This document shows positions 7,802 through 48,000 of a stretch of DNA of 64,000 nt, piece after piece. The position numbers and the translations under genes are program-made. Each line of letters starts with the position of its first letter. Positions within the stretch are counted from its first letter, which is position 1. The notes beneath the pieces are model-generated. The model worked only from the letters and a program-made list of their open reading frames with translations, did no database searches and was not told the origin of the DNA. The stretch comes from Halothermothrix sp. (GTDB lineage Bacteria; Bacillota; Halanaerobiia; DY22613). Where the stretch lies: the NCBI GenBank assembly GCA_016841825.1, contig JAENYK010000010.1, forward strand, positions 1 to 64,000, written 5' to 3'.

Positions 7802-8581
7802 TTAATCCTCCCTAACATAACGTTTTAAATGTCCCAGAGCTGCCTTTTCCAAACGGGAGACCTGGGCTTGAGAGATTCCGATATTTTCAGCCACTTCCAT
7901 CTGTGTCTTACCTTCATAAAATCTAAGAGTTAAGATCAGTTTTTCCCGATCATTTAATTTACGCAAAGCTTCTCGAACAGCAATTCCTTCCAACCAATTT
8001 TCGTCTTCATTTTTATCATCACTAATCTGATCCATCACATAAATTGGATCACCACCATCATGGTAGATCGGTTCAAACAGCGAGATAGGGTCTTGAATAG
8101 CGTCCAATGCATAGACAATCTCTTCTCTGGAAATTCCTAACTCTTTGGCAATCTCACCAATAGTAGGCTCCTTAGCCTTTTTATTGATTAAGGACTCCTT
8201 AATCTGTAAAGCTCTATATGCTGTGTCCCGGAGAGAACGACTTACTCTAATTGGATTGTTATCCCGTAAATAACGACGAATCTCACCAATAATCATTGGT
8301 ACTGCGTAAGTGGAAAATCGGACATTCTGACTGAGATCAAAATTATCTATTGCCTTCATTAAACCGATGCAGCCTACCTGAAATAGATCATCGACATGTT
8401 CTCCTCGATTATTGAATCTTTGAATTACACTTAAGACCAATCGTAAATTCCCGCCAACGATCTTGTTTCTAACTTCCCTTTCTCCTTTCTGCAATCGCTT
8501 GAATAATACTCTCATCTCCTCATTTGATAAGACAGGCAATTCTGATGTGTTGACTCCACAGATTTCTACTTTGTTTGCCAT
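7802..8581 (-). CDS. sigG: Late forespore sigma factor SigG
   Basis: Sigma-G directs late gene expression in the forespore. The N-terminus MANKVEICGVNTSELPVL matches the conserved SigG start, which fixes the ATG at 8579-8581 with GGGAGGGAC upstream. Region 2 (LVLSVIQRFNNRGEHVDDLFQVGCIGLMKAIDNFD), the SigB/F/G-type region 3 and the region 4 helix-turn-helix (GKTQMEVAENIGISQAQVSRLEKAAL) are all present. About 259 residues. Unlike the usual arrangement it is separated from sigE by a blaI-blaR1 pair. Confidence 0.96.
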   Translation of the reverse strand: MANKVEICGVNTSELPVLSNEEMRVLFKRLQKGEREVRNKIVGGNLRLVLSVIQRFNNRGEHVDDLFQVGCIGLMKAIDNFDLSQNVRFSTYAVPMIIGEIRRYLRDNNPIRVSRSLRDTAYRALQIKESLINKKAKEPTIGEIAKELGISREEIVYALDAIQDPISLFEPIYHDGGDPIYVMDQISDDKNEDENWLEGIAVREALRKLNDREKLILTLRFYEGKTQMEVAENIGISQAQVSRLEKAALGHLKRYVRED

Positions 8582-8626
8582 TATACTGTCCCTCCCACTT
8601 ATTGCCATTTTTGCTTTGTCTATTAA

Positions 8627-8942: not shown

Positions 8943-11165
8943 TCAATTCACAGTAATATCAAGCATTTGCATAAGCAGCCAGCAGCCGGGCTGATTTTTC
9001 TTCAGATAAGCATCACCATATTGTTGTTTCAGGTCTATCGCAGACTCCCTGAAAGCTTCATACCAATCTTGACCGGTATTGGCTAATGGTACGATATCCT
9101 CTGCCTTACCGAGAATGTCTCTACAAGCTGATGCCATGATCTGCCCCTCCAATCCGGTCTGTCCTCCCTGTTCAAACAAGGCAAAGCAATAACGCAGCGT
9201 ATGATTTCCGTAATAAATTAATTTCCTGTACTCAGTTTTATGCTCCTGAATATATGCCTGTGGATTTGACATATGTGCAGGAGACGAGGCAATCGTCTCA
9301 ATTAGTCCGCCTATCTCCTCCACAACATCGCACTTATAATATTCAATTGCCCGCTCATAGCATGATTGTATATGTGTTATGATATATTTTTGCGTGTCAA
9401 GTGCATCATTGTAGATGTCGGAAGGGAATTTCTGTTTAATTGAGGAAGTATACTGACTTCCATCCTGCGGCATCCAATATTCCCGTAGTGTATATCCTCC
9501 AAAATCATTCTTCTCAAAAGTGATCGCCACTGGCATATGGCTCCCACCACTTTCTGAAAATCCATTATCTGAATATTTAAATTCCAGATAGAGCACCATA
9601 ACATAGACCGTAACCATGTTGTCATTCTCCACGATTTTGAGAACCGTATGAGCTTCGCTAGCAAGATCACCATTATTGTAGTGCATAGTGTTTGCAGTAT
9701 AAACGGCATTGGTTATATAAACATCAAGGTTAGAACGTTCGGCATTTTCAGTAATATTTATTGGTCTAACCAGACTTTCATCCGTTTCCGTGCTATTCTG
9801 TACTAACTTAACAAGATTTTCATACAGATCATTATCTATGCGGCTGTACCGACCATTCATCCCCATCTGCATAACAGCATTACCATTCAATAAATAGGCA
9901 TAGTAATCGGTGATTGTCCCATCAGAATAGGTTACACGCAATAGATAACATTCATCCAATGTCTGGAGATCAATTCCTGGCCAGGCAGCAGATTTTATCA
10001 TGTAGTTCATAATCACATCTTCCGCAAGTTGTGCATCGTCTCCTGACAACGAGACTATTACACGGATTTCTTCATTCAAAAAATGGATAATTTCATGAGA
10101 TGTAGAATCTTCAGTGGAAGAAAGCCCCTGAGTGCCACCTCCAATTTCATTTTTCTGTGATCCTGTAGGTGTTATGGAATCAGTTCTGACAAACTGCAAC
10201 TCTTCAGGGATAATCTGCTCATCCAGCACAGACACTTCTTGCTTTGGATCTGAAAGCAGTCCAATTCCAAGCACTACAAAGCAAACAATTGTTACAACTA
10301 TTACCCAGAGAGCAGGCGTTTTGTAATCCAATATATTTTTGATCCTCGCCTTTATATGACCTTCCCCAAAAGCAAGGGGACTCCCATTCAAAATTCGCTT
10401 GCCCAGTGCAAAAGATAAAAGTGAAGCGGAATATGCTTTTTTGATATCCTCCCCCATTACCTTAATAACCTTCTCATCACAGGATAGCTCCATATCATTA
10501 CTCATTAGTACAAAAGCAATCCAGACCAGAGGATTAAACCAATGGATACTCAAAACTAAGAAAGCAAATGGCTTTATAATATGGTCAAATCGGTGTATAT
10601 GAGTCTCTTCGTGACAGATAATATAGCGTTTTTCTTCTTTCATCAGTCCGGCAGGAATGTAAATTCTCGGTCTGAAAACTCCAAGCACAAAAGGTGTTCT
10701 CAAATTAGTAGTCTCGTAAATATTACATTCAATGTACTCTGCACTTTGGAGGTGTCTTTTTATAGTTAGAAAACTGACAATACTGTAAATAACCATTGCT
10801 ATAATGCCTAAAATCCAGATATATGAACCTATCTGAATATAGAGAGGTACGGAATTTACACTCGCATCTACCGAAGAAGAAAAGAAGATTCTGGTTACAG
10901 CTGGATTACCAATACTCCCATTATTAATTTGTAAGTTCTGCTGAGAAACAAAATCATGTGAAACAGATGTAATGTTTGCAGGCATAAAACTAAATGTACT
11001 CTCAAAGGCAAATGGGCAAATAAGTCTAAAGGCAACAAATCCCCACAGAAGATAAGAAATAACCTTTGGAGCTCTTTTCAGAGGTAAGCGGAGAAACATT
11101 ATAAAAACGATCAGATAGCTTGCTGTGAGACTCATATTTAACACGGAAAGCAGTATCTTTTCCAA
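8943..11165 (-). CDS. M56-family BlaR1/MecR1-like sensor metalloprotease
   Basis: A 740-residue membrane protein. The N-terminal part has several transmembrane segments and a zinc-protease domain with HEETHIHRFDH (HExxH around residue 187) and NDMELSCDEK (the second metal motif). In BlaR1/MecR1 this domain is switched on by an outside signal and leads to cleavage of the BlaI/MecI repressor. A further helix at about residues 283-303 leads to an exported C-terminal half in which I see no penicillin-binding SxxK/KTG motifs, so the signal may not be a beta-lactam. The start is TTG at 11163-11165 with AGGGAGGG upstream, two bases after the blaI stop. Confidence 0.8.
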   Translation of the reverse strand: MEKILLSVLNMSLTASYLIVFIMFLRLPLKRAPKVISYLLWGFVAFRLICPFAFESTFSFMPANITSVSHDFVSQQNLQINNGSIGNPAVTRIFFSSSVDASVNSVPLYIQIGSYIWILGIIAMVIYSIVSFLTIKRHLQSAEYIECNIYETTNLRTPFVLGVFRPRIYIPAGLMKEEKRYIICHEETHIHRFDHIIKPFAFLVLSIHWFNPLVWIAFVLMSNDMELSCDEKVIKVMGEDIKKAYSASLLSFALGKRILNGSPLAFGEGHIKARIKNILDYKTPALWVIVVTIVCFVVLGIGLLSDPKQEVSVLDEQIIPEELQFVRTDSITPTGSQKNEIGGGTQGLSSTEDSTSHEIIHFLNEEIRVIVSLSGDDAQLAEDVIMNYMIKSAAWPGIDLQTLDECYLLRVTYSDGTITDYYAYLLNGNAVMQMGMNGRYSRIDNDLYENLVKLVQNSTETDESLVRPINITENAERSNLDVYITNAVYTANTMHYNNGDLASEAHTVLKIVENDNMVTVYVMVLYLEFKYSDNGFSESGGSHMPVAITFEKNDFGGYTLREYWMPQDGSQYTSSIKQKFPSDIYNDALDTQKYIITHIQSCYERAIEYYKCDVVEEIGGLIETIASSPAHMSNPQAYIQEHKTEYRKLIYYGNHTLRYCFALFEQGGQTGLEGQIMASACRDILGKAEDIVPLANTGQDWYEAFRESAIDLKQQYGDAYLKKNQPGCWLLMQMLDITVN

Positions 11166-11167
11166 AG

Positions 11168-11530
11168 TTATCCCTCCCTATGCTCATCAATAAGCTTTTT
11201 CAACTCATCAGCCTGCCGTTCGCTAAGCGGTTTTTCTCCAATAAAAGCTGTCAGAAATTTAGGCAGTGATCCTCCAAAAATATCTTCAACAAAATGTCTA
11301 CTTTGTTTTGCATAAAACTCATCCTTCTTTATCCGGGATGAGACAACTGCATTTTCATTTTGAAAAATGCCCTTTTTACACAGTTTTTTTAAAACTGTAT
11401 ATGTTGTTGATTTCTTCCAGTTCATTTCTCTTTCACAGAGCTTTACCAATTCACCAGAGCCAATGGGTTCATATCGCCAGATTAAGTCAGCAAATCTCGC
11501 TTCACTTTGGGGAAGTTGATAATTAGTCAT
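11168..11530 (-). CDS. BlaI/MecI/CopY-family repressor
   Basis: A 120-residue winged-helix repressor. Visible are the start MTNYQLPQSEARFADLIW, the recognition segment NWKKSTTYTVLKKLCKKGI with the typical TTYTVLKKL, and the C-terminal dimer helix. The ATG at 11528-11530 is chosen because GGAGGTAAAG lies upstream and the operator region starts just beyond. It is translationally coupled to the blaR1-like gene. It should bind the GGTCTAT inverted repeats in its own promoter and be inactivated by the partner protease. Confidence 0.88.
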   Translation of the reverse strand: MTNYQLPQSEARFADLIWRYEPIGSGELVKLCEREMNWKKSTTYTVLKKLCKKGIFQNENAVVSSRIKKDEFYAKQSRHFVEDIFGGSLPKFLTAFIGEKPLSERQADELKKLIDEHREG

Positions 11531-11546
11531 CTTCTTTACCTCCTTT

Positions 11547-11605
11547 GGTCTATTGTATATAGACCTTGATATAACAAGTTTACATCTAATAGACCAAAAT
11601 GTCAA
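11547..11605 (-). promoter_or_regulatory. Promoter and predicted BlaI-type operators
   Basis: TTGACA (11600-11605), a 17-bp spacer and TAAACT (11577-11582) form a sigma-A promoter. The spacer holds GGTCTATTAGA (11585-11595), and downstream of the -10 is the perfect dyad GGTCTAT-tgtat-ATAGACC (11547-11565). Two sites sharing GGTCTAT over and after the promoter fit autorepression by the adjacent BlaI-family protein. Confidence 0.75.
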
Positions 11606-11655
11606 CCAATGTTGAAAATAAATAATCAGCAACAATCAACTCTAACAGTTAAGTT

Positions 11656-11699
11656 AAAAAGATGGAATAGCCGCTCTCTGGCGGCTATTCCATCTTTTT
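11656..11699 (-). terminator. Terminator overlapping the end of sigE
   Basis: A 19-bp perfect stem (AAAAAGATGGAATAGCCGC with its complement) and a 6-nt loop. On the minus strand the stem itself contains the last codons and TAG stop of sigE (11685-11687), and it is flanked by A and T runs. Confidence 0.85.
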
Positions 11700-12413
11700 A
11701 ACTTCAAATTTTAACTTTTTAATAATTCGCTTTTCCAATCGGGAAATGTACGACTGAGATATTCCCAACATATCAGCTACTTCTTTTTGAGTCTTGGTAT
11801 CTCCTTTGCTTTTTAAACCAAACCGGAGAATCAAAATCTTCTTCTCTCTCTCAGTTAATCTTTCCATAGCTTCAGCTAAGAGTTCTTTATCAACCTCTTC
11901 TTCAATACACTTATAGATTAGGTCACTCTCTGTCCCCAGGACATCAGACAATTTAAGTTCATTACCATCCCAATCAATGTTCAAAGGTTCATCAAAACTT
12001 ACTTCTGAACGTTTTTTATTATTTCTTCGTAAATACATCAAAATTTCATTTTCAATACACCTGGAAGCATATGTAGCCAGTTTTATATTTTTACTGACGT
12101 CAAATGTATTAACTGCTTTGATCAAACCGATAGTCCCGATAGAGACCAGATCTTCAATATCAATCCCAGTATTTTCAAACTTCCGGGCGATATATACCAC
12201 CAATCGGAGGTTACGTTCAATCAACACACTACGAACTGCTTTATCTCCTGCACCTAACTTTTCCAAAAAATATTTCTCTTCATCTGAGGTTAAGGGTGGT
12301 GGTAATGCTTCACTACTGCCAACATAAAAGATTGGTGATTGATATAAACCTAGATATTGTAAAACCCTGATTTTGAATAATTGTAATCCTAAACATACAT
12401 GCAATAATTTCAC
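11685..12413 (-). CDS. sigE: Early mother-cell sigma factor SigE (pro-sigma-E)
   Basis: Sigma-E drives early mother-cell transcription. The 242-residue product begins with an N-terminal pro-sequence (about residues 1-30, [13 protein letters not shown]...) before [13 protein letters not shown]; the SpoIIGA protease is expected to cut there. Region 2 ([35 protein letters not shown]) and region 4 ([23 protein letters not shown]) are complete. The start is GTG at 12411-12413, preceded by AAGGGGG. It is 41 bp downstream of spoIIGA, its usual operon partner. Confidence 0.96.
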
Positions 12414-17057: not shown

Positions 17058-18311
17058 TTACTCGACTATCCGATTAATTTGACCTCCTAATCGGGCGATC
17101 TTTTCATCTATCTTCTCATATCCTCTTTCAATGTGTTCACCGCCATGAATAACAGTCTTTCCCTCAGCAATCAGACCTGCCAGAACAAGAGCAGCTCCAG
17201 CTCGTAAATCACTGGCCTCAACAATAGCGCCATATAGTTTTGACATACCATTAATAATGGCAGAATGTCCTTCAATTCGAATCGCTGCGCCCATTCTCAA
17301 TAACTCTTCTGCATGTTTCAGTCGGTTTTCAAAAATAGTCTCAGTAATTATGCTGGTTCCTTCAGCAACAGACATTGCAGTCATAATCTGTGGCTGTAAA
17401 TCAGTAGGGTATCCTGGGTATGGAAGAGTTTTTACCTCCAATGCCTTAAGACGACCATTACCTTTGACATGAATCTGGTCATCGTTGCAGCCTACCTCTA
17501 CTCCAGCTTCTTTTAGTTTGGCAATCAATGGCTCAACATGTTCCGGAATAGTGTTTTCAATAATCACATCACCATTTGTCAAAGCAGTAGCTAACATAAA
17601 AGTACCGGTCTCGATCCGATCAGGTATAACAGTATAATCGATGGTCTGAAGTTTTTCCACACCATCAATTTTGATCATGTCTGTACCTGCACCTCTAATT
17701 CTTGCTCCAATACCATTTAGAAAATTTTGCAGATCTACTATCTCAGGTTCTCTAGCACAATTTCTAATAATGGTAGTCCCTTTTGCTTTAACAGCTCCCA
17801 TCATTAGATTCTCTGTAGCCCCGACACTGGGGAAATCTAAATGAATCTCATTACCTACTAATGATTTTGATTCTCCTAACAAATATCCATGGCCTTCTTG
17901 AAACTCTGTATTCAAACTTTTTAAACCTTTTATATGAAAATTGATCGGTCTTGGTCCAATACTACAGCCGCCAGGTTGTGATATTCTTACTTTGCCAAAT
18001 CGACCTAATAAAGGCCCCATCAAAAAGACCGTAGCTCTCATTTTTCGCATGAGATCATCAGGTACTTCATAGACAGATAAGCCTGTTGTATCTACTTCCA
18101 GGACGGTCCCTGTAAATGTTACTTTAGCGCCTAAATGTTTCAAAACCTCAATCATTACTTCCACATCTTTTAAATGAGGAACATCTCTGATAATATTTTT
18201 TCCCTGAGTAAGGACTGTAGCTGCCAAAATTGGCAACACAGCATTCTTAGCCCCACTGATTCGAACCTTTCCTTTTAGTCTAACACCACCGGTGATTTCA
18301 TACTTTAACAT
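17058..18311 (-). CDS. murA: UDP-N-acetylglucosamine 1-carboxyvinyltransferase MurA
   Basis: Catalyses the first committed step of peptidoglycan synthesis (PEP transfer to UDP-GlcNAc), the target of fosfomycin. The active-site loop PGGCSIGPRPINFH has the catalytic Cys, so normal fosfomycin sensitivity of this enzyme is expected. KNAVLP, DLRAGAALVLAGL and the C-terminal HIERGYEKIDEK motifs are intact. 417 residues. The start ATG at 18309-18311 overlaps the murB-like stop (18305), implying translational coupling. Confidence 0.98.
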   Translation of the reverse strand: MLKYEITGGVRLKGKVRISGAKNAVLPILAATVLTQGKNIIRDVPHLKDVEVMIEVLKHLGAKVTFTGTVLEVDTTGLSVYEVPDDLMRKMRATVFLMGPLLGRFGKVRISQPGGCSIGPRPINFHIKGLKSLNTEFQEGHGYLLGESKSLVGNEIHLDFPSVGATENLMMGAVKAKGTTIIRNCAREPEIVDLQNFLNGIGARIRGAGTDMIKIDGVEKLQTIDYTVIPDRIETGTFMLATALTNGDVIIENTIPEHVEPLIAKLKEAGVEVGCNDDQIHVKGNGRLKALEVKTLPYPGYPTDLQPQIMTAMSVAEGTSIITETIFENRLKHAEELLRMGAAIRIEGHSAIINGMSKLYGAIVEASDLRAGAALVLAGLIAEGKTVIHGGEHIERGYEKIDEKIARLGGQINRIVE

Positions 18312-19216
18312 CCCATCACCTCCCTGGACTTCAATAAAAACAATCCTTCTCGTAAGTTAAAATCTGGTATCACAATCTTTTCCCTAATATCTTTTAAAAG
18401 AGCCAGCACATCATTATATGCGGCCTCTCCTAAATTCGCCACATATCCAGAACCAATCCCCAAAAAGGCGGCCTGACCTCTCCGCAAACCAGAAACTTCA
18501 TGTTTGACAAACACTTCAGTCAAATCCCGTTCAGTTGAAAAAAATACCGGGCCAGCCATCGGAAAATGATTCTGAGTAACAAATCTCCATTCGTCCTGAC
18601 GATTTTGGATCTTATTTATTATCTCTTCCCGCTCACCATGGTTTAAATTAAACACCACTTCGACAATGATCCGTTTAAAATCTTGCGTCTCGTCATTAAA
18701 TAACTGTGAAGGTTCTATCCATCTGGTTATTAAGCCATCGGGCTCCATCACATAAACTTCCTGTATCAGATGATCTAACTCAGGATCTTTACATCGACCC
18801 ATCTTCACAACCCATCCCCCGATAGTCGTTGGAATACCCCACCAGTTCTCCAAACCAGTCAAACTATGAGCAATAGTATGTCGTAAAAGAGCAGTCATAG
18901 TTGCACCTGCTCCTGCATAAACTCTAGTACCCTTAATCTGAATATGATTTAACACATTAGCTAATTTAATAACCCAGCCATCATACCCTGCTGGATGAGA
19001 CAAAACCGATGTTCCATTGCCAATTACCTGATAAGGAATACATCTCTTTCCCACCCAGGTAATAGCAAGACGCAAATCTTCAATTCCCCTTGGAATAAGC
19101 AATACTTTAGCAGGTCCACCAATGCGAAAACCTGTGTGGAATTTTAAAAGTTCATTCTCACGAATCTCTCCCGTAAAATATGACTGTAATTCATCAAGGT
19201 TCACCACAGTGTTCAC
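18305..19216 (-). CDS. MurB-like protein, catalytic residues apparently missing
   Basis: Length (303 residues), position after murC and the FAD-binding fold match UDP-N-acetylenolpyruvoylglucosamine reductase: FHTGFRIGGPAKVLLIP, VIGNGTSVLSHPAGYDGWVI, VYAGAGATMTALLRHT, LTGLENWWGIPTTIGG. However, the usual GIPGTVGGAVxMNAGAYG is altered after GG (WVVKMGRCKDPE), the YRxS motif with the substrate Arg is not seen (FNDETQDFKRIIVEV), and the catalytic Ser of GSxFKNP is replaced (MAGPVFFSTERD). The start is GTG at 19214-19216 after GGAGGTAA. I infer a non-catalytic or altered MurB paralogue; a true murB should lie elsewhere. Confidence 0.75.
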   Translation of the reverse strand: MNTVVNLDELQSYFTGEIRENELLKFHTGFRIGGPAKVLLIPRGIEDLRLAITWVGKRCIPYQVIGNGTSVLSHPAGYDGWVIKLANVLNHIQIKGTRVYAGAGATMTALLRHTIAHSLTGLENWWGIPTTIGGWVVKMGRCKDPELDHLIQEVYVMEPDGLITRWIEPSQLFNDETQDFKRIIVEVVFNLNHGEREEIINKIQNRQDEWRFVTQNHFPMAGPVFFSTERDLTEVFVKHEVSGLRRGQAAFLGIGSGYVANLGEAAYNDVLALLKDIREKIVIPDFNLREGLFLLKSREVMGC

Positions 19217-19303: not shown

Positions 19304-20692
19304 TTAGTGAGGAATCTTTACCTCGGAACTGTTTAAAAGGTCAACCAGTTCTTCCCCAACCCGGTAAACATCTCCCGCTCCCATAGTAATAACCATATCA
19401 CCTGGGCGGACAATCTCTGAAAGATATTCTGCAATTCCATCCAATGTTGGAAAATACGCTACATGACGTCCTTCATATTTCTCCGTCAATAATGCCAGGT
19501 CTTTGCCATCTACTTCGGAAATAGGATTTTCACCTGCACTGTAAATACCTGTTAAGATAACTTCATCAGCATCAGAGAAGGATTTACTAAAATCATTTAA
19601 CAGATGCTGGGTTCGACTATACCGATGAGGTTGGAATACACAGATAACCCGTTCTTTTTTTCGTTGTAAAGCAGCTTTCAAAGTTGCCTTAATCTCAGTT
19701 GGATGGTGTCCATAGTCATCAATAACCAGAATACCACTAATATAACCTTTTTTTTCAAAGCGTCGCTGTACACCTTTAAATTGATTCAGATAAGAAGATG
19801 TCTGTTCAAAAGATAAACCTAAATAATAGCCAACACAAAGTGCGGCTGCACTATTATAAACATTATGCATTCCCGGAACTTCCAGAGTCATCTTTCCCTG
19901 ATATTCTCCTCTATAGTAGATATCCATCTCTGTATAATCTGATAACAATTTAGCATTTTCAATCCGCAATACCGCATCCTGAGAAGTTCCATATGTAATA
20001 AGATTTTCATCCTTCGAATTAACGATCGATCTAATTACCGAATCATCCCAGCAAACAATTTTAACTCCATCAACGGGCACTTTATTCATAAACTCTTTAA
20101 AGGTAGCCCTTAAGTTTTCTTCTGTTCCATAATACTCCATATGATCTGGTTCAATATTGGTAATGATCGAAACTTGCGGCTGGAAATACAAAAAAGAGCC
20201 GTCACTCTCATCAGCTTCGGTGATTAGATATTCACCTTGCCCCAGTTTGGCATTACCGCCAATATCATTCAACTCCCCGCCGATAAGAACGGTCGAATCT
20301 AAACCAGCTTTCTCCGAAATTAAAGAAATCATGGAAGTAGTAGTAGTTTTACCATGAGTTCCTGCAATAGCAATCCCTTTCTTATATTCCATAAGACGTG
20401 CAATCATCTGAGCACGTTTGACAATGGGTATTCCCAACTTTCTCGCTTCAACCAATTCCACATTATTTTGAGGAATGGCTGCGGTTATTACCACTTCATC
20501 TGGATGGTCAAGATTGGCAGCATTGTGGCCGATAAATATCTGGGCACCTTTCTTCTCCAACTCTTTGAGTAATTGGGAATCACGTAAATCGGACCCACTT
20601 ACCTCAAAACCTAGATCTAAATAAAGACTGGCAATCCCACTCATCGAAATACCACCAATACCGATAAAATGTATCTTTCCTCTAGACCCCAT
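19304..20692 (-). CDS. murC: UDP-N-acetylmuramate-L-alanine ligase MurC
   Basis: Adds L-Ala to UDP-MurNAc in the cytoplasm. N-terminal Rossmann motif IHFIGIGGISMSGIA, ATP loop AGTHGKTTTTSMIS, NIEPDHMEYYG and DDYGHHPTEI, RVICVFQPHRYSRT, MGAGDVYRVG are all present. I start at ATG 20690-20692 (MGSRGKIHF) because AAGGAG lies upstream. About 462 residues. The upstream space (20693-21053) should hold murG but contains only a relic. Confidence 0.97.
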   Translation of the reverse strand: MGSRGKIHFIGIGGISMSGIASLYLDLGFEVSGSDLRDSQLLKELEKKGAQIFIGHNAANLDHPDEVVITAAIPQNNVELVEARKLGIPIVKRAQMIARLMEYKKGIAIAGTHGKTTTTSMISLISEKAGLDSTVLIGGELNDIGGNAKLGQGEYLITEADESDGSFLYFQPQVSIITNIEPDHMEYYGTEENLRATFKEFMNKVPVDGVKIVCWDDSVIRSIVNSKDENLITYGTSQDAVLRIENAKLLSDYTEMDIYYRGEYQGKMTLEVPGMHNVYNSAAALCVGYYLGLSFEQTSSYLNQFKGVQRRFEKKGYISGILVIDDYGHHPTEIKATLKAALQRKKERVICVFQPHRYSRTQHLLNDFSKSFSDADEVILTGIYSAGENPISEVDGKDLALLTEKYEGRHVAYFPTLDGIAEYLSEIVRPGDMVITMGAGDVYRVGEELVDLLNSSEVKIPH

Positions 20693-20843
20693 TGACTTCA
20701 CTCCTTTATCTGTCATAACGCAGTACAAGGCTGGCATGGAAATGCTACATATCCCATCATATGCACTTTCCCGCTAAAGTGTGCAAACTTTCCAGCATGT
20801 CCATCCATTATCAAAAAAATAATGACCTATACAAAATAGTACA

Positions 20844-21037
20844 CTATTTATTTAATATCTCCCGTACAGCTTTTATTATACTTTTATCTGATAACCAGTT
20901 GGGAGAACAATATCTTTTGCCAATCCCGTTACAGTACCCAGGTATAAGGTATCTGCCGCCAGAAATTCCTTTTCAACCATTGGCAATCACCAAAGTTGAA
21001 TAGATATGTCTCCCGTTTCTGTTACGATAAGCCTCAT
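20844..21037 (-). pseudogene. murG: murG relic (truncated and frameshifted)
   Basis: After ftsW comes AGGAG and an ATG at 21035-21037 reading MRLIVTETG, which resembles the MurG start (MRxIITGGG). Shifting frame gives GRHIYSTLVIANG, which matches the MurG GGHIYPALAIAxG motif. Shifting back gives EKEFLAADTLYLGTVTGL and then AKDIVLPTGYQIK, matching the next MurG segment (LYVGTxxGLExxIVPxxGY). A last frame gives KAVREILNK and a stop near 20844, plausible as the MurG C-terminus. About 290 middle residues are gone. Position between ftsW and murC is exactly that of murG. An active murG must exist elsewhere. Confidence 0.85.
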
Positions 21038-21053
21038 CCAACTCTCCTGAACA

Positions 21054-22139
21054 TTATAGATCTTTTACATGACGTGAAATATTCAACAATATACCAACTG
21101 CTGCCAGCATAATACATAACGACGATCCACCATAACTAATAAACGGTAAAGTGATACCTGTAACAGGCATCGAACCAGTAACCACAGCTATATTTACCCC
21201 TGCCTGCAGGACGATCATACAGGTCAAACCAACCGCCAGGATAGAACCATATATGTCGTCACACTTTAAAGCTATCTGAAAGCCTCGCCAGGCCAGAGCA
21301 AAAAAGAGCAGTAATACAAAAGCAGTTCCTAAAAGACCTAATTCTTCACCAATAACCGCATAAATAAAATCAGTGTTAGGTTCTGGCAGATAATAAAATT
21401 TCTGATGACTCTGCCCCAATCCTACTCCAAATATTCCACCCGAACCCAGAGCTAGTAGTGATTGAATGATATGATAGCCACTATCTAAAGGGTCTGCCCA
21501 GGGATCTAGAAAAGACAAAATTCTCTCTTTTCGATATGCATATTCGGGTGAAAAGATAAAAACCAATACGGCAGGAATAGATAAGACAACCAGACCAGAA
21601 AGAGTAATTATCGGGACACCAACTGAAAAAAACATCATAAAAACTGTTCCACCCATAGTCACAGCAGTTCCCAGGTCTTCAATTAAGACTAACAGACAGA
21701 CAACACCCGTAATAATCAAAGGCGGAATCAGAGCCCAAAGACTTTTTCTCAGCTTTTCTGCCCGAAGTGCCAAATAATGTGCCATAAAAAGTACCAATGC
21801 AAATTTCGCTATTTCAGAAGGCTGTACCCTGAAACCACCGAACTCTAACCAACGTTTTGAACCCTTTATTGGATCAGCAATAAACAAAACAATTAACAAA
21901 GCTACTACTGAACCAATTAAAAGCCAGCCCGACATTCGACGATAATTGTGATAATCAAAGTTAGTAAAGAATATCATGCCACCAAGTCCGATCACAGACC
22001 AAATTAACTGTCGAATCAAAATATTAAATCCCGCATTCAAAGCACTAGCACTATAAATCATTACAAAACCAATACCCATAAGAATAATGACAATTACAAA
22101 GACCAGGATATCAGGTGAAGACCGCTCAGTTGGTTTCAT
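21054..22139 (-). CDS. ftsW: Lipid II-polymerising glycosyltransferase FtsW (SEDS family)
   Basis: A ten-helix SEDS glycosyltransferase that polymerises lipid II with its partner PBP. Motifs: MGIGFVMIYSASA near the start, KGSKRWLEFGGFRVQPSEIAK, DLGTAVTM, GVGLGQSHQKFYYLPEPNTDFIYAVIGEELG and the C-terminal PFISYGGSS. I choose the ATG at 22137-22139 (MKPTERSSPD) with AAAGGAGGA upstream rather than an earlier in-frame ATG inside murD. About 361 residues; it could equally be called SpoVE. Confidence 0.95.
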   Translation of the reverse strand: MKPTERSSPDILVFVIVIILMGIGFVMIYSASALNAGFNILIRQLIWSVIGLGGMIFFTNFDYHNYRRMSGWLLIGSVVALLIVLFIADPIKGSKRWLEFGGFRVQPSEIAKFALVLFMAHYLALRAEKLRKSLWALIPPLIITGVVCLLVLIEDLGTAVTMGGTVFMMFFSVGVPIITLSGLVVLSIPAVLVFIFSPEYAYRKERILSFLDPWADPLDSGYHIIQSLLALGSGGIFGVGLGQSHQKFYYLPEPNTDFIYAVIGEELGLLGTAFVLLLFFALAWRGFQIALKCDDIYGSILAVGLTCMIVLQAGVNIAVVTGSMPVTGITLPFISYGGSSLCIMLAAVGILLNISRHVKDL

Positions 22140-22158
22140 CCCCTTATCTCCTCCTTTA

Positions 22159-23520
22159 TTATTTAACCAATTTCCGCACATATTCTTTAAATAAGTGCCC
22201 TCTTTGTGCATAACTGTCAAACATATCCCAACTGGCACAGGCGGGAGATAACAGGACAACATCCCCCAGTTCACTAAATTCATAGGCTATTTTAACCGCT
22301 TTTCTGAGGTTATGAGTCAAAATAATCTTTCCGACAAAACCGCATTCCAGGGCTTTATCTCGTAACACTTCTTTAGTGGCACCAATCAAAATTAACACTT
22401 TAACTTTGTTTACTACTAATTGAATAAAATCAGCAAAATCAAGATTACGATTCAATCCCCCCGCAATCAAAATTAACGGCTCATGAAAGGCTTCCAACGC
22501 TTTTATAGCTGCATCAGGGTTAGTCCCTTTAGAATCGTTATAATACTTAACGCCTTTATAAGTTAAGACATATTCTAAAGTATGTTCTTGACCTTTAAAA
22601 CTCCGTAAACCGGATCGAATCTCTTCAGGCTTAATTCCCAACAAAAATGCAACAGCTGATGCTGCCAATGCATTTTCAATATTATGTTGACCACGAATTT
22701 TTAACTCATTAATAGCACCAAACTCTATTGGCCCATCTCCCAGATCACAGACTAACATCTCTCCATCGAGATAACATCCCGGAATCACCCGCTTTCGCCG
22801 ACTGAACCAGATTACCCGAGATGGTGCGTCAGAAGCCAATTGACTGACTATCTTATCATCAGCATTTAAGACAATATAATCTTGAACAGTCTGATTTTTA
22901 AATATATTCTTTTTGGCTTCCAGATATGCTTCCATAGTCTTATGTCGATCCAGGTGGTCGGGAGTAAGATTCAAAAAAAGAGCAATCCTGGGGTGAAATT
23001 CCTCAACTTTTTCCAATTGAAAGGAACTAACCTCGGCAACTACCAAATCTTCAGTTGTAAGCTTTAGAACTTCTCCAATAAGTGGACGCCCAATATTACC
23101 ACCCACAAATACTCTATGGGAATAAGCTTCCAACAATTTGCCAATCAGCAAAGTGGTAGTTGTCTTACCATTAGTTCCCGTAATCGCCACAAAAGGAGCT
23201 TGAGACAGACGATAAGAGAGTTCCACTTCAGCGATCATCGGAATCCCCTGTTCCTGAGCTTTACACAGAATGGGAATGTCTGTAGGAACACCGGGGCTCA
23301 AAACCAGAAAATCCACATTCAGAACCGTGTCGGAATGTCCTCCCAGATCAAAAACTACTCCGGTAAGGCCCGCTAACTGAGCCACTTCAGCACGCAATTT
23401 GTCAGCATTCTTTGCATCACTTACAACCACTGTAGCACCAAGTTTTGTTAAAATCTGTGTACAGGCAATGCCGGTTCTACTCAAACCGATTATTCCAATA
23501 CGTTTCCCCTTCAGTTCCAT
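22159..23520 (-). CDS. murD: UDP-N-acetylmuramoylalanine-D-glutamate ligase MurD
   Basis: Adds D-Glu to UDP-MurNAc-L-Ala. N-terminal RIGIIGLSRTGIA, ATP loop VAITGTNGKTTTTLLIG, GGNIGRPL, NLTPDHLDRHKTME and the C-terminal KGTNPDAAIKAL and LLSPACASWDMFDSYAQRGH motifs are intact. 453 residues. The ATG at 23518-23520 follows GGAGGAAAGG. A 123-bp gap separates it from mraY. Confidence 0.98.
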   Translation of the reverse strand: MELKGKRIGIIGLSRTGIACTQILTKLGATVVVSDAKNADKLRAEVAQLAGLTGVVFDLGGHSDTVLNVDFLVLSPGVPTDIPILCKAQEQGIPMIAEVELSYRLSQAPFVAITGTNGKTTTTLLIGKLLEAYSHRVFVGGNIGRPLIGEVLKLTTEDLVVAEVSSFQLEKVEEFHPRIALFLNLTPDHLDRHKTMEAYLEAKKNIFKNQTVQDYIVLNADDKIVSQLASDAPSRVIWFSRRKRVIPGCYLDGEMLVCDLGDGPIEFGAINELKIRGQHNIENALAASAVAFLLGIKPEEIRSGLRSFKGQEHTLEYVLTYKGVKYYNDSKGTNPDAAIKALEAFHEPLILIAGGLNRNLDFADFIQLVVNKVKVLILIGATKEVLRDKALECGFVGKIILTHNLRKAVKIAYEFSELGDVVLLSPACASWDMFDSYAQRGHLFKEYVRKLVK

Positions 23521-39040: not shown

Positions 39041-42000
39041 CTATTGCGTATTGGATTTGACACCAAAATTAACTTTTTGCACAATTCCGGTTAGACTAAT
39101 CACAACCGGATTTTCAGTAGTTAACTCATATCCTTCAGGTAATGAAGAGACATCTAGTTTGAGTAGTAGGTCTTCTCCTCTACTAAAGTTACTCGCCAAT
39201 TCATCAACAAGATGATAAAGACCTTTGTTGTCAGTTGTGATAATCTGACCAGAAACTGTCAAGATCTTAACCCCTGGCAAGCCATTCTCATCTTCCTGCT
39301 GTATTCCATCACCATTCAGATCATTGAAGACTTTCCCGATAACCAGAGAGCTGGAGAATCTACTGTCAACAATAACCCGAACATCAGCTATCGCTTCATT
39401 TGAGATAACCACATCAGTCAATCCATGAATCGCTGTTACCCGATTCTGATAGATATTACCTTCGACTACTCCTGTTCCGACGACCAGATTATATGTCAAA
39501 GTAGCTGTCTGCCCCGCTTCTAAACTCAGTTCTTCCCAGAGTAGTGTTTCATTTACTACTGGTTCACATGGCTGCCCATCAAGCCTGGCAGTATCTTTAA
39601 CGTATTTGAATCCTGGCGGAATCATATCTTGAATAAAATAGTTACTAATCACAGCAGTAGTCTGATTTTCAATCACAATAGAGTACTGAACAAACTCTCC
39701 GATGGAGACTGTCTGGCGGTTAGCCTTTTTGGTTAACAAAATAGCACCTTCCAGGACTGGATCGATTGGGATATGGTTATTACAAATTTTTAAATTCCCG
39801 GAGCGATGGCTAATTGTTAAGAAATAAGTAGTATCTACATCGGAAGTTGATGGCAAATTATTCTCCACAATCAGATATGAATCTTCAATAACCTGTTCAC
39901 TACCACCATTTATCACCAGTGTCTCTTCTTCCGGTTGAATGATTGTGGACGGGAATTGCGGGCTATAAGTGTTCGGTGGCACTACTCTGAGAGTATAGTT
40001 CCCTTCAGGTGCACCATCCAGAATATCCACCCGATAATGTCCAGCAGTTCCTGTAATTTGACCTTGCTGACCTGGCAGGAGATCCCTTTCAGCATCAAAA
40101 CCTGCTGGCCCAGTAATCCAAACCTCTGCTCCAGAAACGGGCTGTCGGGTTACTGCATCATAGACTATTCCTGTCGGTTCATAAGGATAATTCTGCCTGG
40201 TATCTAAAGTTCCCGATAACAGAGTCAAACCCTGAACAATTCCACTGGCAACCTGGGTAGTTGAATTCCGATAATATAATTTATAACCATTTCCGGGTAA
40301 TAAACCTCTGAATCTGTATAAACCTGCAGAGTTTGTCATAGTTGATGCAATTAGATTATTGCCCTGATAAATCTCAACAATCCAATTTGCACATAACTGT
40401 TCATTAGCAGCTAATTGATTATCGTGATCATCATCTAGCCAGACAGTTCCTAAAATATTAGTAGTTCCCGGATTACTGCCTATCTGAATTCTGGTAGGAT
40501 CATCATCATCCAGATAGATATCTATATTGTTGGCGTCTATACCTGCAAAAAGTTCCTGATTATTTAAAACAAATTCACTTACTTGATTGTCTATTCCATC
40601 ATCCAGGTCTGAGTCGCTGACCCCAGTAAGGCCTTCTCCACTTTGATAAACTACCTGAAGATCAATAGTTCTTCCAGAATCCTCACTAACTGCAGCCCGG
40701 AAGCGAATATTTATGGTTTGACCAGCGTTAAGTACACCCAGGTTAAGCCCTTCTTCAAGCTGGCTTCCTCCTGCAAGTGTATCCGCTACCGTAATTCCAC
40801 GAACCATAGTTGAATCTGCCATATAAGTTAACTGGGTCGGTAAAGCAGTTTTTACGACCACATCTGTTGCTTCCAAAGAACCAATATTGCGAACCTGAAT
40901 ACTGTATTCCAATAAATCACCGACTTTAATATTATCACCATTCAGATCACTGACCTGCATAATCGCCCGTAATACAGGGACTAAACCGGCAGCAATCTCG
41001 GTGGGCTGATCACCATTCGAATCATCACCATCTGCATCTGTCTTCTCATCTGGCAGCTCTTCACAGGAAACAACTCCCTGACTGATGATTATCTGTTCAT
41101 CAGGCACAAAATCTACCAAAACTTTATAGGTAATCTCAAAACTAACAGCCGGATTTAGATTGCCCAGGGCAATACGTACATCTCGTCCATCAACAACACC
41201 TTCTGGATCACGACTGACTGTCTGGGTCTTGAAGCTATTTGTAGACATTCTATTATCACCACTTATTTGCAGAGTGCCTGCAATATAAGTTGTCTCCTCA
41301 GGAATAGTATCAGCCAGTCCAACCTGTGTAGCCTGAGCATTACCCAGATTTGTCACAGTTATCTTGTAGGTAAGCACATCTCCTGCTTCCAGTTCACCAC
41401 CATTGTCATCGGTAACAATCTTTTGTGCATCCAGAATAGGAAGATCTCCTAAAGCACTATAGGTTGGATCATCAGCTAGCACAGTGTCTGGATCATCACT
41501 CAAAATCTGAATAATTTCTGTATCTACACCTTCTGTACCCTCACCATAAGCAGTTAAAAATGCCTGGCTGGTAATAATCGTTCCACTTACTACCTCTGGA
41601 TTAACCTGTACTGTAAACTGCACTTCTATCTCCTGGTTGACATTAATTCTTCCCAATTGAACTCTATCAGCCAATGGGAATTCTCCGTTCCTATCTTCCA
41701 GAATCTGTCCATCAACCAGCGTAGAACCTGTTACATATGTGGTATTCGCTGGTATCTGATCCTGCAGTACAGCCTGAACAGCATTCTCATTACCTGTATT
41801 ACCGATCCGCATATTGTATGTTATTAGAGTTCCCGTAGAGAGCTCACTCTCAGAGAAGCTATCTCTTTTTGACATAGACAGAACAGGAGAAGATGCAATA
41901 GTCAAACCAGCTGATCCCAACTGGATTTGATCAATCAAAGATGGAACATTCAACTCTGATTGATTATGAATGATAGTTCCGTCAACCAATACAGACTTAA

Positions 42001-45000
42001 GAGTAGCATCCCAGTTGATTGTAACTTGACCACTCTCTGCAGGTAATGAGATTTGAGTAATTGTAAATGTTCCGGTATCATTCACACCTGCAGTAGGTTC
42101 TTCAATACTAATTACTCCCGAACTGGTAGTCAGATTAGTCAGGCTTCCTGCTGCAAATTCCGCAGCCAGATCAATTTTCAGAGTCAGATTATCTGCAGCA
42201 ATATTTCCCGTGTTATTAATCTGTATCGAATAATGCACCATTTCCCCCGGTCTGGCTAATACCCGATCTGGCAGTATATTTGCCGTGATTATAGGAGACT
42301 GAATTTTCACATCTACTTCTGAGGTCTGTTCATCTCCCAATTGATCATAAACCCGTACATCATCTGTCACTCCTCCGTCAATGTTCCGACTGTAGTATTT
42401 TGTAACCATTCCTGTATTAGTTAAGGTAAGATTAGTATAGTTCTGCCTATTTAAATCAGCCTGATAATTCAGAGTGAGTGTTTCACCAGGATCAATATAT
42501 CCAGCAGCTGATTTTAGAGTAATCACCCATTCTCCGGTCTCCTGATTATAGCTTAAATCATAGTCATCAGGTGCAAGTTCAAATAGTTCTCTGGCCGGTT
42601 GTCCGATCCAAAAACCAGTTATTCTCGGTTCTAGCTCTCTCATCTCTGGCGGTAAGATATCCTTAATTACCGGCTGCCAGGCTGTGCTCTGACCATTGTT
42701 AACAATAGACAGAGTAAAGTTAGCTGAGGCATTATGACTAACCCATTCCGGACCACTCTTATCAATAACCAATTCTGGCTCAACAACTGTCACTGGAGTA
42801 GATTCAGTATCTCCGACAGAGAAATCATCATTCCCATCTTGAACTAACTCATAAGTATATTCACCGTGCAGTACAAATTCTGTACCAGATCGGTTAAATT
42901 CCTGATTCTTAATTCTCACATGAAGTTCCACAACAGCTTGTCTGTTCGTGGGGATTAGATCAATTCCTTGCAAAATTAAATCATCATCTACCAGATTATA
43001 TCTGAGATCACCTGAAGCCTGATTATCAATTGCATAATTAACTCCCAGCAACTCTATATTATCTGGTAATGTAAACTCAACCTCCAAATCGTATAAATCA
43101 GTATCGATTAACTGACTATCTCCCGGAATCCTCACTGTATAGACCAATTCCTCTCCAATAGTTCCCGAAAGAGGATTACCTATCGTCATAAACCCAGGAG
43201 TTGAGATGGAATTATGAGTTATCGACTGATTGAGAGTCGAACCATATTGAGCCATATCAGCCAATGTTGACTCAGGTGGAAGATTATCATCATCTAAAGA
43301 ATTATAACTCTCCACTCTGCCAACAGTTGTCAGAATATCTCCCGGAGTAAGAGAACTATCTGCTCTAATAGTATAAATTATCTCCATAATCTCACCTGGG
43401 GAGATCGTATAGGTATCAGCCTGATCATCATTGAAGTCCCAGAGAATTCGCCCATCAATATCAAAATTAGCATTAGTCTCCGGGTATTTTATAGCTCTAT
43501 CCAGACCATTAATTTTGATACTTTCAACAAATATGCCTGTTTGACCTCGCTGTCTAAGTCCTTCCGGTATAATATTTAGAACTTGCAGATCATATGCTGG
43601 AGCAGTTCCAACATTAGTGATAGTCAAAGCATAAGTGATTAGCTGATCTGCCATAATATTACTACCATTTATCGGATTGGCGGTCAGTATTGCCTCTAAT
43701 TCAGGTTGGATAATCGCCAATTCTGTTCCGGTTAATGTGGATTCAGGCATTGTTGTCTTCCCAGTATAGCTAAGATTTGCCTCAACCTCGACCAATTGAA
43801 CAGCCGAATCATCCGGCAGATTGTCATTCACCTGCACCTGGTAGCTTATTACCAGATCATCAACCTCATGGTTATCTGCAGTGTTTACAACATCCCCTAA
43901 GTCCCAGATCAGATCGGCTGAGCCTGCATTTGGCGTATTGAGTAAAGTAATCGGTGAATAACTAAATACTCCAGCTTCTGTAAATGGTGGTTCTGTATCA
44001 CCATTGATACTAACTGTTTTCACAAATTCCATACCAACAGGCAAATGTGAAGACAATATTAATTCCTGAGACGTACCTTCCTGTAGGTGAACTGTCATTG
44101 TTAATGTTACCAGGTCACCTATCCGCAAATCATTTGTTCCCGGATTAAAGGTATCAGTATCTCTGACCAGGCTTATACTATTAGCATCTCGAGTTTGAAC
44201 AGTGGTGATAGCCGCTGCTGTATAGTCATTCACACCACCTACTCCATCACTACCATCACGCTCACCGATGATCTGACCAGCCCGACTGGTCCAGTCTACG
44301 CTAACAGTATTGATAAGTGATTGATTTATAGTTGTCTGATCCATTACCTCAACCTGGTAAATATAAGTAAGCTGATCAGCCATTGGCAAATTGATATAAA
44401 TTGGAGTTAGACTATCCCGACCCCAACTAATAGTTTGCGGGGAACCTGTTTCGCCAGTTCCGACCACCTCTGGAACGAGCTGAGTTGTCATCCCCTCATA
44501 AATCTGGGCCAGACTTCCAGCGACATATTTTAAGCCTGAATTTAAGTTATCTATCAGGTTTAGATCATATGCTGTTGAAACATTGCCAGTGCCATTTGTT
44601 AACGTCACCTTGTATTCTATTATGTCACCCGCGTCCGGTGCTGTAATCTGTTCAAAATTCTGATCACCTTTGGTCACGTTTCGCGCCTCTTGAGCTATCA
44701 CTAACTGAGGTTCAATCACTGTCAAAGAGTCTGATATCTCAGTACCTCCGATAAAGTCATCGATCCCGCCATCTATCAGTTCATAGGTATAGTTGGTAGT
44801 TATTTCAAATTGTGTTCCCTGAGTATTAAATGCATCGTTTTTGATGTTCACTTTTAAATCTATCACTGCCTGAGTACCAATAGAGACAGTCTCTATCCCA
44901 GTCAATTTGAGAGTATCTCCACTCAAATCGCTTAATAAATTACCTGCAGCCTGGTTAGTAGCAGCAAAGTCAGCTTCTATAAATTCAACATTGTCAGGTA

Positions 45001-48000
45001 AGGTGACCTCAACTTCCAGATCATAAAGGGTCTCCTCAGAATTACTATCACCCGGGATCTGGAGCTGATAGAGAATCTCCTCACCAATAGTTCCCGTAAT
45101 CGGATTAGTGATCCCCGGAATACCGGGAGTTGAAATAGTATTATGATCTACAGCTGCATCCGGTGTACTGTATTGCCTTCTAATACTACTGCCGGGAGAT
45201 AGGTCATCATCCAGTGAGTAATACGCTTCAACCGACACTGAATTACTGAGCACTAACCCTTCTCTTAGATCACTATCCGCCCTGGCTGTAAAGACAAGAA
45301 TCAACTCTTCGGTAGGCAAAATAGTATAGGTATCTGCTGTCGCTCCATCATCCAGATTCCACAAAATCCTACCATCATCTGTAAAGTTAATATTCGATTC
45401 AGGATCTTTAGCCGGTTTGGTTACTCCTGCTATGGTTATACTCTTAACAGTTATTCCTATAAGCCCCTTTTCGCGTAAGCCCACGGGTAAGGTATCAACT
45501 ATCAACAGATCATATGCAGGTGCGTTTCCGGTATTAGTTACTGTTACTGTATACTCAATTAATTGATTAGCCATAATATTGCTATCACCAGATGGTTCCG
45601 CAGCCAGATTGATATTCAGATCAGGTTGGTTAACCTCAAGAGTTGTAATAATTTCTGTATTTTCTGGCAAGGTTGCTTTTCCAGTATAGGCAATATTGGA
45701 ACTGACGTTTAGATCCTGATTTACCACCGCTGGGTCTAGAGCTTCGTTCACCACTCCCCGATAAATTATGATCAATTCATTATTTGTTTCATCATTATCA
45801 CCTGAATTGGTTATATCTCCAAAAGTCCAGGTCAGAATCTGTTCATCTGCGGAAGGTGTTATGGCAAAATCCACTATTCCATATGTGAATACTCCTCCTT
45901 GCGAATAGGGAGCCTCCAGATCGCCATTGATACTGATTATATCCACAAATTCCAAACCTTCCGGAAGAACTGAGTTCACAACTAAATCACCTGTTGTACC
46001 TTCCTGAAGATTGACTTTTAATTCAAATGTCACCAAATCACCAATCCGTAAATCATTCACTCCAGAATTAAAAGTATCAGTAATCTCGACACTAAGAGTA
46101 TTATCATCTGGTATTTGAACCATTGTAGAATCAGTATCCCGATAATCATTCAGGCCTCCAGATCCATCACTACCATCTCTTTCTCCTGCTACAATTCCAT
46201 CTGCACTGGTCCAATCCAGAACAATAGAATTCGTTAGATTCTCTAGCACAGATACACTATCCAATACCTTGACTTTGTAGGTATAGACAATCGTCTGATT
46301 TTCAGGGAGGTCAATATCCCTTTGATTTGGATCAGCCTCTCTGCCCCAGTGAATAATCTGAGCAGAATCTATACCCGTACCAGTAACTTTTGGTGTAATC
46401 GCTATTTGACTTCCTGAATAGTTCTCTTCCATACTTCCGGCTAGATAACCCAGACCTTTGTTTAGGGTATCCACTATATTCAGATCATAAGCAGAAGAAA
46501 TATTGATTCCGGTATTATTGATAGTCACCCGATATTCCAGAACATCTCCAGCATCTGGACTGGTCAGAGTTGTAAAATCATCGGGATCTCCTTCAGTCTG
46601 ATTGCGAACTTCCTGCAGGATAGTTAGTTCAGGTTCAGTAATTATCAAATCGGTATTAAGCACATCTCCTGTACCAAAATCATCATTATCGCTTTCCGTT
46701 AACTCATAACTATAAGATCCTGACAGTGGTAGTTGAACTCCGGCAGTATTCTCCTGGCAGTTGACAATCTTAACTGTTATGTCTACAATTCCTCGACAGT
46801 TAGCGGGTATCGACTCAATTCCAGTTAAGGTTAACTGAGAATCATCAAGATCTGAAGTCAAACTACCTGTCGCCTGATTCTCAGAACCAAATTGTGCTTT
46901 GACAAACTCCACTCCTGTTGGCAAATCTAAATCTAATTGTAGATCATACAACACAGTGTCAACAGTAGCCCCATCTCCGGGGATCTTTAGTTGATAGACT
47001 ATCTCTTCACCAATAAAACCTGTCCCCGATAAATCAATACTCAACGCTTCGGGAGTAGAGATTGTATGATGATTTACACTGGAGGTCACTGTTTGTGCAT
47101 ACTGCTGCCTATCTTCCTGCATCACCTCAGAAGGCAAGTCCTGATCATCCAGAGAATAATAAGCAGTAACCTGAGCAGTACTACTCACTGTATCGCCTTC
47201 TGCCAGATCTCCATCACTACGAAGAGTGTAGATGATAATCAGACTTTCACTTGCCGGAATATGATAATCATCTATATTCAGATCACTCAGATCCCAGATT
47301 AATTGCCCATCAGTTAAATAATTCGGATTATCATCGGGATCTTTGATTACTTTGTCTATCCCCCCTATAGTGCAGCTTAGCACTGTAATTCCGTCTACTT
47401 CACCCTGGCGCAAACCGGATGGAATAGTATTTAATATCTGCAGGTCATAGGCTGACCCCTGACCAGTATTAGTAACCGTAATAGTATACTTCAGCTTCTG
47501 ATTGGCCATAATATTAGTCCCATCTGCAGGACTAGATGTAATATTTACATTTAATTGAGGTTGTCTGACTTCAACTTGGGTGTTAACCTTAGTTACCTCT
47601 GGAAGCGTCGTTTTATCAGTATAATCAAGGTTCGCGCTAACATCCAGAAGTTGGGCAGCAGGCGTAACAGCTAACTCTTTTACCACTTGAGCACGATAAA
47701 CAATCTCCAGAGAATCATTCACCAGATTATCACCAGAATTAACCAGATCACCAAAGCTCCAATATAAATTCTGATCACCTGCAGCAGGTATATGATCGTC
47801 TTGAATCTCATCATAACTAAATCCATTAGCCGATTCATACGGCGATGATGAATCACCGTTAATACTCACAGTGTTTACAAATTCTAGACCTTCTGGCAGA
47901 GTTGAAATTACTGTCAAATCTTTAGTAGTACCTTCCTGCAAATCTAAATTCAACCTGAAGGTGACTATATCCCCGATTCTTAGATCATTTGTACCGGGAT

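Follow-up and report, generated by a model that had tools for sequence, protein, structure and literature searches.

A decayed murG in the dcw cluster of Halothermothrix sp. and its probable displacement by a clostridial-type murG

In Halothermothrix sp., a relic of the native murG lies at the canonical position of this gene in the dcw cluster, and the only intact murG of the genome is a distant, clostridial-type homologue on contig C10. Both genes, the subfamily and tree placement of the intact one and the conserved gene backbone around each locus were observed directly. MurG carries out an essential step in cell-wall synthesis. Xenologous displacement, in which the dcw murG decayed after the gain of the clostridial-type gene now at C10:100732-101802, is very probably the explanation.

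The murG relic between ftsW and murC

The relic lies in a window of 64,000 nucleotides. The features concerned are the following:

21054..22283, minus strand: ftsW, upstream of the relic and intact (75% identity to family relative G001)
21044..21048, minus strand: AGGAG, the ribosome-binding site that once served murG (read directly; similar arrangement before the intact G001 murG)
20844..21037, minus strand: murG pseudogene, the relic (frameshift-aware alignment with shuffles, window scan, search of the own genome, phmmer)
20882..21037, minus strand: MurG N-terminal remnant of 55 residues, with two indels and an internal TGA (alignment, phmmer)
20844..20891, minus strand: MurG C-terminal remnant, 15 codons and stop, joined to the N-terminal part (alignment, window scan)
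20743..20802, minus strand: element in the spacer that separates murG from murC (shared with G001 although murG has decayed; single copy in both genomes)
19304..20737, minus strand: murC, downstream of the relic and intact (73% identity to G001)

By ordinary open reading frame rules, the gap between ftsW and murC consists of 316 non-coding bases on the minus strand. The coordinates given for a decayed murG in the original prediction (20844-21037) are exact: the start codon ATG is found at 21037 and the terminal TAG at 20844-20846. The ATG sits 16 bases past the ftsW stop (21054), behind the AGGAG, which had also been recognized as a ribosome-binding site. In G001, an intact murG is present between ftsW and murC, starting at the same place behind AGGAG.

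Besides the ribosome-binding site and the start codon, the surviving parts comprise ~53 codons of the N-terminus and, at the other end, the final 12-15 codons with the stop. The three MurG peptides quoted in the original prediction (MRLIVTETG being the first) are all present in different frames, and frame changes are indeed needed, as it stated. The remnant carries two indels and an in-frame TGA. The relic's own frame ends after ~16 codons. The glycine loop GGGTGGH, which is invariant in MurG, is degraded and has lost two codons. The coding ability is destroyed by stops, frameshifts and the deletion of most of both domains. Since the window scan recovered nothing of the central part of MurG from the interval, ~300 internal codons were lost in one or more deletion events, in line with the predicted loss of most of the gene. 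The N-terminal and C-terminal alignments share ~10 bases of overlap, which could point to short repeats as the ends of the deletion.

The interval was analysed by frameshift-aware alignment with the first 60 amino acids of G001 MurG, using 100 shuffles as a control. Residues 1-55 aligned with a score of 96, compared to 21.5 ± 3.1 for the shuffles (maximum 31), and 27 of 53 residues (51%) are identical. The runner-up site for the MurG N-terminus in the whole window, on both strands, scored 45. The C-terminal remnant, SDKSIIKAVREILNK-TAG, aligns with the end of G001 MurG, AEERIINIIKEILNK-stop, at a score of 39; shuffles gave 19.7 ± 3.2, none of 200 reaching 39. It is the top C-terminal match within the window (the next scores 35). 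This retained 3' end was one of two points missing from the original prediction, the other being the identity of the replacement.

On single unshifted frames of the interval, the dcw MurG profile yields only E = 0.12, as might be the case if the peptide matches were accidental and the interval an ordinary spacer. For this reason the relic would escape a plain domain search, and frameshift-aware alignment is needed. With an alignment score ~24 standard deviations above the shuffle mean, the best place in the window, the exact position and start-codon spacing, and the 5' and 3' parts in their correct order, the probability of a chance match is negligible.

Once corrected for the shifts, the relic best matches the G001 dcw MurG (2.6e-11, phmmer), followed by the dcw MurGs of the class, with the intact MurG of its own genome far behind (0.28). 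The MurG similarity postulated for the interval thus holds. The relic therefore represents the ancestral, vertically inherited dcw murG of the canonical TIGR01133/dcw lineage.

The assembly is a draft of 43 contigs with an estimated contamination of 4.7%, and indels together with a large deletion are typical of bad assembly. An intact murG could in principle have been collapsed or deleted here by the assembler or by sequencing error. Against this, the surviving codons have drifted to 51% identity, compared to 73-75% for the intact neighbours. Neither this drift nor the loss of the conserved glycine loop would result from a simple assembly deletion, and a second, intact MurG is present, as a real loss demands. 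The divergence of the remaining codons and the destroyed motif make such an error very unlikely.

The remaining dcw genes are complete (mraZ, rsmH, spoVD/pbp, murE, murF, mraY, murD, ftsW, murC, murB, murA, ftsQ, ftsA and ftsZ) and follow the gene order of G001, with identities of 53-86%. Few bacterial gene clusters are as stable as the dcw cluster, and a complete one including murA has been noted in Halanaerobiales (PMC8871954), with which the gene order found here agrees. The MurB encoded at 18305-19216 of the window scores 149 bits against the curated MurB cut-off of 259, though it is collinear with and 65% identical to its G001 counterpart; it appears to belong to a divergent MurB branch.

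The spacer (20743-20802) contains two motifs common to the window and G001, GGACATGCyGGAAAnnnTGCACAC and GCATAnGATGnGATAnGTAGCA. The second occurs once in each of these two genomes and is absent from the other 57 class genomes, with up to 2 mismatches allowed. The true start of murC is probably located near 20692, behind AAAGGAG, and the spacer probably belongs to murC expression. Its conservation, and the persistence of the ribosome-binding site and ATG, could suggest that the 194-base remnant has taken on a new role as a small protein, a leader or a regulatory element for murC. However, the conserved stretch does not overlap the murG remnant and also occurs in G001, where murG is intact, and the remnant frame stops after ~16 codons. 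A regulatory RNA was considered as well, but an Rfam search of the interval returned no significant match. There is only a slight chance that the remnant serves such a role.

Other parts of the window also differ from G001. A segment of ~24 kb (33878-58350), located between DNA polymerase IV-like and D-Ala-D-Ala ligase genes, is absent at the matching place. It encodes a giant repeat-rich secreted protein of 5496 amino acids (39041-55531), a subtilase-like protein of 1054 amino acids, a 559-amino-acid lipoprotein and a 927-amino-acid protein without Pfam match. At 8943-11635, the window carries genes for a BlaR1-type M56 peptidase (740 amino acids) and a BlaI-type penicillinase repressor (155 amino acids), a pair absent there in G001. 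It is flanked by genes at 7802-8608 and 11685-12413 that share 91-92% identity with G001 and, by size and place, are probably sigG and sigE.

The intact murG on contig C10

The original prediction reasoned that a replacement must exist elsewhere, and exactly one was found. In the genome (5.08 Mb, 99.7% complete), a single gene with MurG domains is present at C10:100732-101802, and a permissive genome search with G001 MurG gave two matches only, this gene and the relic. The protein is full length, encoded by a frame of 356 amino acids without stops, and both GT28 domains are intact (PF03033, 7e-41; PF04101, 3e-30). Its sequence can be aligned with the solved MurG structures 3s2u and 1f0k. Judging from its family, it is presumably a lipid II synthase, transferring GlcNAc onto lipid I.

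In the NF009102/PRK12446 model, the C10 MurG scores about 445-447 bits against a curated equivalog cut-off of 339; in TIGR01133 it reaches only 250.4 bits, for a cut-off of 250.25. It is about 55% identical to homologues from Clostridia and 33% identical to the canonical G001 MurG.

The gene lies away from the dcw cluster and occupies a variable stretch flanked by backbone genes that are collinear with G001. The C10 regions 81.2-89.3 kb and 102.8-108.9 kb correspond to G001 835.0-842.6 and 860.0-866.1 kb, and the collinear genes are mostly 52-82% identical. The tetranucleotide profiles of 20-kb pieces of C10 correlate with that of the window at 0.93-0.98, compared to 0.58-0.82 for clostridial loci. 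Collinearity and tetranucleotide profile rule out contamination as the source of this gene. Its GC content (38.9%) is already that of the host (38-39%), so that composition offers no separate evidence of transfer.

Two radical-SAM genes, one SPASM peptide-maturase-like and one B12-binding, adjoin the C10 murG (L003 5679-8208). These neighbours and an HTH gene have no counterpart in 109 related murG loci or in five plasmid loci, and no donor segment could be identified from them. On a Streptomyces plasmid, a murG is likewise accompanied by two radical-SAM genes; this apparent similarity was set aside, as only one pair is alike, and that distantly (21%). A Streptomyces plasmid homologue of MurG obtains 255 bits in NF009102, under the cut-off of 339, with 38% identity.

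Distribution of the two MurG types and the proposed history

The sample comprised 59 genomes of the class, in which the order is represented by two genomes and the genus by one. The NF009102 cut-off is exceeded in Halothermothrix sp. alone, the other genomes giving at most 217 bits. This supports the view, already expressed in the original prediction, that the loss is unusual in an otherwise intact dcw cluster. Nearly all class murG loci examined (29 and G001) immediately follow ftsW and precede murC or murB. Across the sampled phylum, homologues of the C10 type (about 46-56% identity) occur in a minority of genomes. There, the PRK12446 type is the sole MurG reported in the genomes that carry it, with the exception of G268, which has both types. 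The best 80 named matches to the C10 MurG come mostly from Clostridiaceae and Lachnospiraceae. None of ftsW, murC, murB, murA and murD was found near PRK12446-type loci, neither in 29 loci with 1.5-kb flanks nor in 80 with 5-kb flanks where the contig allowed.

PRK12446-type murG genes are also plasmid-borne in several phyla, with examples in Anoxybacillus, Cytobacillus, Legionella adelaidensis and Aureispira (L170, L171, L172 and L173). On the Anoxybacillus plasmid, murF and genes for a D-Ala-D-Ala ligase and a circular bacteriocin are found nearby.

A tree of 131 proteins separates the clostridial from the dcw type with an SH-aLRT of 100. The C10 MurG is placed inside the clostridial group, where its nearest neighbours are weakly resolved (SH-aLRT 84-92). 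The original prediction had asked whether the intact copy was vertically inherited or acquired; its presence in one of 59 class genomes and its position inside the clostridial group make it look acquired. Alternatively, both types could have been present in the ancestor of the class, this lineage having kept the other copy. Both indeed coexist in some Bacillota, as in G268 with one of each, but the PRK12446 type is missing from all 58 other class genomes, the family relative included. Independent losses would be needed everywhere else, and such an ancient duplication is highly unlikely.

Under xenologous displacement, the lineage would first have gained an additional gene for lipid II synthase, one of the NF009102/PRK12446 (clostridial) type, presumably from a Clostridia-like donor. 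Both enzymes would then have coexisted, rendering the native murG redundant and releasing it from selection. Its decay would have proceeded by point changes, small indels and a large internal deletion, both ends staying in place. All lipid II is now presumably made by the acquired enzyme, which would be sufficient for viability. In this order of events, acquisition would have preceded loss; no intermediate with both murG genes was seen in this lineage, for which the closest genome compared is the family relative G001.

As this type occurs on plasmids and radical-SAM genes, one of a peptide-maturation type, adjoin the C10 murG, the gene might also have entered the lineage as a mobile copy serving as a spare or for self-protection. 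Linked to an antibiotic and less sensitive, this MurG would have taken over the essential step, after which the native murG died. This version of the events is considered unlikely.

Precedents and significance

A distant MurG homologue has been described in Kitasatospora viridifaciens, where MglA makes lipid II without murG; it also substitutes for murG in Streptomyces coelicolor (PMC8092295). As predicted here for the C10 MurG, a homologue encoded outside the dcw cluster supplies lipid II once the canonical murG is gone. In K. viridifaciens, however, murG was removed experimentally and both genes occur together naturally, whereas in Halothermothrix sp. the native murG is naturally dead and only the distant PRK12446-subfamily type remains.

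The NF009102/PRK12446 MurG of Clostridiaceae and Lachnospiraceae belongs to the same subfamily (about 55% identity), is likewise encoded outside the dcw cluster and is normally the sole MurG reported. The difference is that the class studied here is otherwise canonical in every sampled genome and that the remains of the native gene can still be read. Xenologous displacement leaving a pseudogene remnant follows the same course, with an acquired homologue taking over and the resident copy decaying. What sets the present case apart is that the gene concerned is essential and lies inside one of the most conserved bacterial clusters. Halothermothrix sp. thus offers a new and unusually clear natural case, but not a new kind, because the substitution of MurG by MglA has been demonstrated experimentally (PMC8092295).

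The presence of a legible fossil together with an identified replacement is direct evidence that even the MurG step is exchangeable between lineages. For Clostridia and similar lineages, it points to a way in which murG may have come to lie outside the dcw cluster. It also provides a natural test of whether MurG must come from the dcw operon or be recognized by a lineage-specific divisome.
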